This document shows positions 59,996 to 63,749 of a stretch of 64,000 nucleotides of DNA, one piece after another (the first letter of the stretch is position 1; each line of letters begins with the position of its first letter). This DNA is from Stenotrophomonas maltophilia (GTDB lineage: Bacteria; Pseudomonadota; Gammaproteobacteria; Xanthomonadales; Xanthomonadaceae). Under the pieces are notes generated by a model, which was given only the letters and a program-made list of their open reading frames with translations, did no database searches and was not told the DNA's origin. The stretch covers positions 1 to 64,000 of the forward strand of contig NZ_RXLZ01000017.1 in NCBI RefSeq assembly GCF_003970865.1. Direction: 5' to 3'. The position numbers and the translations under genes were made by a program.

Positions 59996-62233
<2,238 letters not shown>

Positions 62234-62308
62234 GGTTTCCCGCGAACGGCGCAGCCCCTCGTGGCGGCTGGTTGGCTGTGAACATCAAAAGCCGCGCTTG
62301 GCCGGGCG

Positions 62309-62572
62309 GGATGGATTCGCGGGGGACGTCGTGAACCCCCAGACCGGCCCAGCCGCTGGCGGCTGGGCGTTCGGGCGCTTGCGAAGCACTGCTTCGCAAG
62401 CAAAGCGCCCTCACCCATGGGGGCTTGGCCGCGGCTTGCACGTGTGCGCTGTCCTGCGCACACGGCAAGACCGGGGTTGGGCGTCCTGCCCAACCCGTCG
62501 GGCGCATGCGCCCGACCCATGCCGCGGACACCCCCGCGAACCCACCCCGCTCGGCCTCTGACAATTTCCGAG
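62309..62572 (+). repeat. Palindrome-rich element, copy 1
   Basis: About 265 bp holding stems CAGCCGC/GCGGCTG, GCGAAGCA/TGCTTCGC, GTGTGCGC/GCGCACAC, GTTGGGC/GCCCAAC and GGGCGCATGCGCCC. A second copy lies inverted at 62757-63030, with roughly 85 per cent of positions alike by eye. No coding frame is convincing within 62234-63113. Confidence 0.75.
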
Positions 62573-62696
62573 TGCGTCCGCCACGGAAAAGAAAAAAGAA
62601 AAGCAGAAGCGCTTGGCTGGCTGCTTTTTGTCGAGCCGAGCCCACGCTCGGCTGCCTTTCGATCAGATATCGAATACTCGATTCCGATGCAGATTC

Positions 62697-62747
62697 ATCC
62701 ACGCATGGCGTGGATCTACCGTGTCGACCAAGGTCGACACCTACCAA
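62697..62747. repeat. SMAG-type palindromes between the inverted elements
   Basis: CATCCACGC-ATGGCGTGGATCTAC, then GTGTCGACC/GGTCGACAC and CTACC. Confidence 0.78.
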
Positions 62748-62756
62748 CAGCAGCGT

Positions 62757-63030
62757 CGAACCGTCAGAGGTGGGGCGGTGTGGGTTGGCAGGACCGTTGG
62801 CGCCATGGGCCCGAGGCATGCCTCGGGCGGGTTGGGCAGGACGCCCAACCCCGGCCCTGCCGTGTGCGCAGGACAGCGCACACGAGCAAGGCGCCATCGA
62901 GCCCCCAGGGGTGAGGGCGCTTTGCTTGCGAAGCAGTGCTTCGTAAGCGCCCGAACGCCCAGCCGCCAGCGGCTGGGCCGGCCTGGGGGTTTACGGCGTG
63001 TCCTGCCAACCCACACCGCACCGCCATCCC
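62757..63030 (-). repeat. Palindrome-rich element, copy 2, inverted, with terminal repeats
   Basis: Its ends are inverted repeats of about 19 bp (CGGTGTGGGTTGGCAGGAC near 62772 and its complement near 62999-63021), as in a miniature inverted-repeat element. Internal stems match copy 1. Confidence 0.75.
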
Positions 63031-63041
63031 GCGGATTGCCC

Positions 63042-63073
<32 letters not shown>

Positions 63074-63113: not shown

Positions 63114-63749
63114 TCAGGGCCAGGCAGGCGGCGCGGCAACCCACGCCTGCTGCACCTCGGCCAGCGACGCGCGCTCATCCTCACGCCACTGCGGCAGCAG
63201 CTGCCCATAGTTGGCCGTGGTATTCCACTGCGTCGGCTCGGTGCGTACCGCAGCCGCATACCACTGCACCGCCTCCTGCTTCTGCCCCATCCGCCACAAT
63301 GCCAGCGCATAGGTCGGTGGCACCCAGGTGGGCCTCGTACGGGCGTTGCTGGCCGATACCAGCCACTGCTCCAGCGCCGCCTCTGCCTTGCCCTGCCGGA
63401 GCAGGTCCCAGCCGTAGTTCCAGCGCACGCTGCGGCCGCTGCTGCTCTGCGCCGGGGCTTCTTTCAGGGCTTCGCCGTACAACTGTTCGGCCAGTTCACC
63501 GCGACCCTGCGCCCCGGCCACCGATGCCAGCTGTACCGTCGCCTCGACCGCGCGGCGGCCGCGTTCACGCAGCTTGACCAGCTGGGCCACCAGGTCATCG
63601 CCCTCGCCCTGCACCGCCACCATCGGCGTGGCCGCCGGGTCGTTGTCGAAGTAGAACTCCTGTGGTGCCGGCACGGCCGGCGCGGCCCACGCAGTAGCCA
63701 CTCCCGAGGCCAGCAGCACGCTGGCCAGGATCTTTCCTGGAACTGACAT
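63114..63749 (-). CDS. Exported TPR-like protein
   Basis: A 211-residue protein from ATG 63749, behind GAGAAGG. A signal peptide (about 1-22, A-W-A-A) is followed by helical repeats (L-A-E-Q-L-Y-G-E-A-L-K-E-A-P, Y-A-L-A-L-W-R-M-G-Q-K-Q-E-A-V-Q-W-Y). It is probably periplasmic; the partner is unknown. Upstream frames extend the ORF, but the signal peptide fixes the start. Confidence 0.75.
   Translation of the reverse strand: MSVPGKILASVLLASGVATAWAAPAVPAPQEFYFDNDPAATPMVAVQGEGDDLVAQLVKLRERGRRAVEATVQLASVAGAQGRGELAEQLYGEALKEAPAQSSSGRSVRWNYGWDLLRQGKAEAALEQWLVSASNARTRPTWVPPTYALALWRMGQKQEAVQWYAAAVRTEPTQWNTTANYGQLLPQWREDERASLAEVQQAWVAAPPAWP

Follow-up and report, generated by a model that had tools for sequence, protein, structure and literature searches.

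The two inverted copies that face each other near one end of the window (a 64,000-nt stretch of Stenotrophomonas maltophilia, positions 1 to 64,000 of contig NZ_RXLZ01000017.1) are probably enlarged members of a TwoAYGGAY-type RNA element dispersed across the class, in which an inserted segment, module B, supplies replacement GGA hairpins. On balance we favour regarding the dispersed repeat as a collection of candidate dual CsrA (RsmA) sites, that is, as predicted decoys. This reading was built from sequence: from the existence of the family, its anatomy and copy number, covariation in its stems, a wobble bias of the strand that bears the GGA loops (termed R), and the location of the copies at gene ends in the host genome. 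If it is right, an abundant Stenotrophomonas repeat would be a predicted RsmA target in more than 100 copies, repeat copy number would be tied to global regulation, and CsrA (RsmA), one of the main regulators of a bacterium, may face many decoys built into the genome. No RsmA-sequestering RNA of Stenotrophomonas was found in the partial listings obtained from a literature search.

Anatomy and surroundings of the inverted pair

The preliminary description of this DNA had placed here two inverted copies of a palindrome-rich element, the first starting at 62309. Both copies were recovered, at 62299-62562 (copy 1) and 62763-63026 (copy 2), as arms of 264 nt that are 84% complementary and lie 200 nt apart; the earlier start was about 10 nt too late, as the arm begins at 62299. 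Copy 1 (R on the minus strand) was identified from the inverted-repeat search, host-genome matches, folding and the reading of its loops, and copy 2 (R on the plus strand) from the inverted-repeat search, folding and loop reading. Both folded far better than shuffled sequences (z of -10.2 for copy 1 and -10.9 for copy 2), with none of 200 shuffles as good in either case. Terminal inverted repeats of about 19 bp had been ascribed to copy 2; they exist there and also in copy 1, and measure 26 nt in each. The paired segments, which are the arms of the stem termed P1 below, are 62300-62325 and 62531-62556 in copy 1 (88% complementary), and 62769-62794 and 63000-63025 in copy 2 (92%).

Each copy contains five hairpins in identical order, in agreement with the preliminary description, and four of the five were matched between the copies by repeat comparison. 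Named after the modules to which they belong, these four are module A hairpin 1 (62347-62368 in copy 1, 62957-62978 in copy 2), module A hairpin 2 (62377-62401 and 62924-62948), module B hairpin 1 (62441-62464 on the minus strand and 62861-62884 on the plus strand, with the loop AGGACA on R) and module B hairpin 2 (62474-62496, minus, and 62829-62851, plus, with the loop AGGAC on R). The fifth, module B hairpin 3, is a palindrome at 62497-62516 in copy 1 and at 62809-62828 in copy 2, where it was also supported by the fold. This hairpin and the two of module A have no GGA loop in the window copies.

An ATPase-like gene (60722-62233, plus strand; function assigned by eye) lies on one side of the pair; on the other side an open frame of the minus strand ends at 63114, so that the two flanking frames converge on the pair. 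Between the facing copies, as had been described, are GTAG-type palindromes, two in number (approximately 62696-62719 and 62721-62744), which are neighbours outside the element and which we take to be SMAG-like. A GCTGTT/AACAGC repeat at 63042-63071, between copy 2 and the adjoining gene, varies in length among orthologues, and its gene-sense strand consists of A-rich triplets that, we presume, recall Hfq ARN motifs. The segments CGTGGCGG (62260-62267) and CCGCCACG (62578-62585) could form an extra outer stem around copy 1, and their counterparts differ among orthologues (by eye). An Rfam scan of the window gave no relevant match.

A modular repeat family and its distribution

Searches of the host genome and of its relatives bore out the view that the element is dispersed, non-coding and distinct from SMAG, and confined neither to this locus nor to the untranslated region of a single gene. 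A blastn search with copy 1 gave 80 matches in the host genome, among which a modular family was recognised, with a minimal core of approximately 104-114 nt that occurs with or without module A and with or without module B. A covariance model built from 27 minimal cores (R1) gave 136 matches in this genome at E ≤ 1, among the best 150 of 4583 candidates scored. The R1 rows with E no higher than 3.5e-4, combined with 24 blastn rows, yielded 125 distinct sites, and other genomes of the genus were also positive. Several copies (e.g. in L005, L014, L016 and L018) lie at contig ends of the 185-contig host assembly; the repeat thus seems to break the assembly, and the real copy number may exceed 125. 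Adjacent sites less than 450 bp apart formed 31 pairs, and all 21 among the pairs listed were oriented plus then minus.

The core comprises a P1 stem of about 25 bp and of free sequence, enclosing two hairpins (P2 and P3) in a three-way junction. In P2, a 5-nt bulge and an inner stem of 3 bp lead up to a hexaloop. P3 was represented in the 136 minimal copies by 25 different stem-and-loop sequences, in which pairing is almost complete, and its tip read C-ATCCAT-G in 131 of the 136. When the window copies were aligned with minimal copies, the hexaloop of P3 proved to contain module B, and that of P2 module A; both canonical hexaloops are interrupted, and the window is without any intact double-loop core. 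On R, module B gives two GGA hairpins in both window copies. Across copies its first loop reads AGGACA (17), AGGACT (3) or AGGAAA (1) and its second AGGAC (18), AGGAT (2) or AGGCC (1), the AGGA being kept in all copies except one and the adjoining loop bases being variable. Some other module A copies carry a further hairpin with a GGA triloop, the stem of which comes in two versions.

R1 matched 32 of 61 genomes, including 28 of the 37 from the host genus, and, at the level of the family, 53 of 198 genomes from 16 of 54 genera. A second model, built from 39 diverse R-strand sequences (R2), matched 67 of the 369 genomes sampled from the class, in 59 of 271 genera, and 32 of 398 genomes in a sample of the phylum, every one of them in the same class or nearer; absences in these figures are soft, as most genome searches scored the best candidates per genome. 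A scan with a core pattern returned at least 118 stretches. The 80 listed are from Gammaproteobacteria or unplaced Proteobacteria and include Stenotrophomonas, Xanthomonas, Pectobacterium, Shewanella, Halopseudomonas, Marinobacter, Microbulbifer, Oceanisphaera, Ectothiorhodospira and others. The pattern was also present in four IMG/VR contigs (L493-L496), which are candidate phage copies, and a plasmid search with copy 2 gave no match. At L274:1130-2200, an array of alternating elements with a period of about 293 lies upstream of kdpF/kdpA-like genes (named by eye). No element was parsed in L277 or L288, nor in 8 of the 46 loci of the class-wide flank reading, and conservation of a GACA tail in one element set is by construction, the search having demanded that tail.

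The preliminary description had suggested a MITE. Terminal inverted repeats, lack of coding capacity and high copy number are as expected of a classical MITE, the deletion derivative of an insertion sequence with a DDE transposase, and so are near-identical copies, 14 of 41 being identical to the subfamily consensus. P1 sequences, however, are wholly different between lineages yet still paired, and a stem whose sequence is free while its pairing is kept is unlike an end recognised by a transposase. Orthologous loci also speak against insertion of this kind. At the window site, the left element was intact in 19 of 30 loci (window genome included), cut off in one, and missing or broken in 10 (by eye; six loci, L118, L119, L138, L140, L141 and L143, yielded no right-hand gene). 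At a second site, the element was found in 13 of 23 loci (host included), cut by a contig end in two and missing in eight, and no clean empty site, against which a target duplication might be read, was seen by eye among the 30 and 23 loci. Nor did a target duplication or, in an unsystematic look, a parent transposase come to light. For these reasons a MITE in the usual sense is not supported, and we consider it highly improbable.

In the same loci, core types swap within a shared P1 and losses are ragged, which suggests that copies have exchanged sequence with one another rather than inserted anew at a high rate. Among the 30 loci of the window site, the left copy carries A and B in the window genome alone (by eye; L118 is cut off) and the right copy does so in L117 (window), L121, L122 and L124 (by eye), so modules have been gained or lost at a fixed site.

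Covariation, wobble bias and gene context

Pairing was assessed in alignments A1 (27 of 30 loci, leaving out L050, L055 and L056), A2 (41 of 44 stretches, leaving out L035, L047 and L108) and A3 (39 sequences, with L104 and L271 also left out relative to A2). In A3, whose 39 sequences are distinct, 97.8% of cells were paired and two-sided changes occurred in 25 of 32 pairs. The covariation score was 0.680 against 0.167 in shuffles, with none of 500 shuffles as high, and on the pair-type measure two of 500 were as high. When the partners were slid by 1-3 columns, paired cells fell to 36-44%.

If pairing is needed in a single strand, wobble pairs survive in that strand and appear as A.C on the opposite one. 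On the gene-sense strand, P1 mismatches were A.C and G.U in a ratio of 142:20 in 267 elements, mostly of the host genus (57:18 in unique contexts and 37:16 in contexts seen once). The ratio was 71:7 in a set of 55 elements, 30:9 in a set of 40, and 196:23 in 130 elements from the pattern scan. P1 mismatches are thus wobble-compatible on R, which marks R as the strand in which pairing is constrained. In loci L294-L341, G.U on R is favoured by the construction of R2, a model made from the R strand with R pairs; R1, derived from the gene-sense strand, has the opposite tendency; and the 130-element set, drawn with a 26-base pattern outside P1, is neutral for P1 wobble. The elements are related, the 55/40-, 130- and 216-element sets overlap, and p-values are nominal. 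In 109 copies of the commonest subfamily, changed P1 pairs were 36 Watson-Crick, 16 A.C, 5 G.U and 8 other, and single-base changes in P1 were about balanced, with 13 G>A in the 5′ arm and 10 C>T in the 3′ arm. The non-P1 middle of these copies, a rough control in that it contains both hairpins, was unbiased (G>A 24, C>T 22).

An upstream gene was called for 77 elements of the host genome, of which 57 come after that gene on its own strand, 50 of these at 24-147 nt from the stop (gene calls here, in the class sets and in the 216 elements below were from home-made ORF scoring, and 11 of 88 host elements had no called upstream gene). In convergent pairs, the read-through transcript of each gene would therefore carry the R strand of the partner element. 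This location, and the presence of the left element after the same gene in the 19 genomes in which it is intact (by eye), would suit a host 3′ untranslated structure on the gene-sense strand, such as a bidirectional terminator or a stabiliser of mRNA 3′ ends. The wobble bias, however, lies on the opposite strand, and it is the same whatever the direction of the neighbouring genes. In 216 elements, G.U:A.C on R was 57:4 in convergent contexts, 53:6 in tandem contexts with R sense, 54:9 in tandem contexts with R antisense, 25:2 in divergent contexts, 24:5 inside called ORFs and 72:12 in uncertain contexts. Tandem orientation was moreover near random (13 vs 10 in the host genome; 16 vs 9 and 10 vs 13 in the class), and no T-run after the stem was seen by eye in the gene-sense direction. 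A host 3′ structure is accordingly a distinctly unlikely explanation. The independence of the bias from gene direction speaks against an mRNA element that simply acts in cis, and in favour of selection on the element itself, be it as RNA or as single-stranded DNA; from the effect size we infer that RNA, in which G.U is stable, is favoured.

Gene context also bears on the decoy reading. Tandem contexts among the 216 elements placed R antisense in 46 cases and sense in 42, which counts against CsrA decoys, as many copies would be without R transcription from the flanking gene. Elements are few in divergent regions, which account for 3 of 37 and 8 of 48 elements whose two neighbouring genes were both called (raw counts in two class sets), and 23 of the 216 lie inside a called ORF, a call that we doubt in these cases. 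At L328:533-1417, a GIY-YIG-like gene lies between two inverted elements (by eye). It was considered as an autonomous unit and set aside, since it sits between rimO-like and cyaY-like genes (named by eye).

The double GGA loop and its relation to known systems

In three sets of minimal elements, both R loops read C-ANGGAN-G in 48 of 55, 35 of 40 and 104 of 130, giving ANGGAN in both loops of 187 of the 225 elements pooled. A spacing of 21 nt between the two GGAs was found in 43 of 48, 34 of 35 and 89 of 104 double-loop elements, respectively. The N positions of the loops vary, and A and GGA are fixed with few exceptions. Among the 104 double-loop elements of the 130-element set, strict AYGGAY occurred in 68 first loops and 50 second loops; in the window copies these loops are interrupted. 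In 40 host stretches (192,164 nt) picked for holding elements, the double-loop arrangement occurred 37 times, whereas 20 simple shuffles gave a mean of 0.0.

These features follow the published rules of CsrA binding. In the excerpts of PMC7652899 available, the CsrA SELEX site is RUACARGGAUGU, usually in a six-base loop with AC pairing to GU, the RsmE loop is ANGGAN, the CsrB repeat is CAGGA(U/A/C)G, and CsrA bridges two sites 10-63 nt apart with an optimum above 18. Minimal copies present GGA in an ANGGAN hexaloop on a covarying stem, as expected of a CsrA site, whereas the window copies carry AGGAC and AGGACA instead, and the hairpin GUACAGGGAUGU of L115 fits the SELEX consensus at all positions. 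CsrA of X. citri binds GGA motifs, according to the available part of PMC7286519, which makes CsrA a plausible partner in this bacterial family. A single csrA was found in the host genome, and csrA in 58 of 61 genomes searched. The three genomes without csrA are also without the element, yet some csrA-bearing genomes lack it too, and nine genomes of the host genus with csrA and no R1 match count against the decoy reading.

In the mechanism that we propose, R would be transcribed, and R RNA would fold to a three-way junction closed by P1, in which one CsrA (RsmA) dimer could clamp both loops in keeping with the published rules. As a weaker proposal, many copies together might titrate CsrA or tag the 3′ ends of read-through transcripts for it. 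The element's own folded R strand would be what spread and upkeep act on, as suggested by a wobble bias that is independent of neighbouring gene direction. By eye, nothing like a conserved promoter was apparent in the class-wide flanks upstream of R. A bolder proposal, which we hold tentatively and as rather less probable than its converse, is that of a selfish class-wide repeat at the level of RNA (or single-stranded DNA), in which folded R is copied and set down close to genes in both orientations, the dual CsrA clamp is part of spread or control, and some Gammaproteobacteria carry at least 100 dispersed decoys whose copy number tunes the Csr network.

The strand bias could also belong to a REP-like element that lives as single-stranded DNA, its R strand being recognised by an HUH transposase (RAYT-type or other), with the loops serving that protein and the CsrA likeness coincidental. 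A bias independent of gene direction fits such a single-stranded life of the element, and the 31 adjacent pairs and the alternating arrays (L274) resemble REP dimers and BIMEs. The position after genes is also that of REPs, at least in the excerpts of PMC3733652. Against this, the variable N within fixed A and GGA obeys the CsrA rule, no GTAG/CGTC tetranucleotide tag was seen by eye at the element ends, and no transposase gene framed by elements was seen in an incidental, not systematic, look. Nor was there a replication-strand bias, 25 of the 62 copies listed for five genomes being co-directional (p 0.16, on the assumption of an origin at base 1 and a terminus at half), and the idea of HUH action on the lagging strand was demoted for that reason. 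We judge a REP-like element unlikely, and retain RNA with dual CsrA sites as the preferred reading.

TwoAYGGAY (RF01731) has the same outer stem around two GGA-hexaloop hairpins, in the same order and on the same strand. The excerpts consulted list it as probably RNA, from human gut, gamma-Proteobacteria and Clostridiales (Weinberg 2010, PMC2864571), and propose it as a CsrA-binding RNA (PMC4333381). The RF01731 model gave six sub-threshold matches in the host genome (E 2.2e-4 to 0.0115; best 150 of 263 candidates scored), all six on the R strand of elements, with a best score of 38.9 bits and none above the cut-off of 43. In control genomes, a sub-cut-off match at E ≤ 10 occurred in 1 of 14, and the window region gave no match at E ≤ 10. 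Two stretches among 12 distant loci exceeded the cut-off: the element of L315, which scored 44.0 against 43 on R, and L336 1706-1763, which lies apart from the R2 match of that locus. In the 369-genome class sample, RF01731 matched 30 genomes (15 above cut-off) and R2 67, with 8 common to both; at most the 7 best candidates per genome were scored for RF01731, and the L315 genome was missed.

The present elements differ from TwoAYGGAY in that their second hairpin carries a 5-nt bulge and a short inner stem, the GGA spacing is nearly always 21 nt, copies are many, modules are grafted on, and loops are ANGGAN rather than strictly AYGGAY; the host matches, too, are under the cut-off. We therefore treat the family as a sister form of the TwoAYGGAY architecture and not as a certified member. 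The parts of the TwoAYGGAY literature available contain no account of it as a high-copy dispersed repeat, a literature search for six core sequences returned no paper, and no description of the present element was recognised among the papers listed by wider searches. If our reading is right, TwoAYGGAY gains a genomic context, and the proposal in the available part of PMC4333381 becomes directly testable in a laboratory-tractable host.

GGA in hairpin loops with predicted CsrA/RsmA titration is shared with CsrB/RsmZ-type RNAs and with RsmU, which the excerpts of PMC7694677 derive from a 3′ UTR and describe as limited to Xanthomonas. Those RNAs come from one or few genes, whereas the present repeat, a predicted decoy, occupies more than 100 sites. 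With REP/BIME sequences (GTAG), including SMAG, the repeat shares dispersal, palindromes, location at gene ends, dimers and arrays, as far as these are described in the excerpts of PMC3733652; it differs in being much larger, in having a three-way junction with covarying stems, and in the lack of a visible GTAG tag or a known linked transposase. The same excerpts describe S. maltophilia repeats tied to tyrosine transposases, the TIRs of TIRYTs, which share their species with the present repeat, and report that some TIRYT-linked TIRs share GGGGWSAS. Compared through this motif description, GGGGTCAGATCC palindromes near some copies may be the TIRYT TIRs of S. maltophilia. Palindromes of the GGGGTCAGATCCGTTTTCC type recur beside elements (in the flanks of L006, L045 and others) and fit the GGGGWSAS motif as given there.
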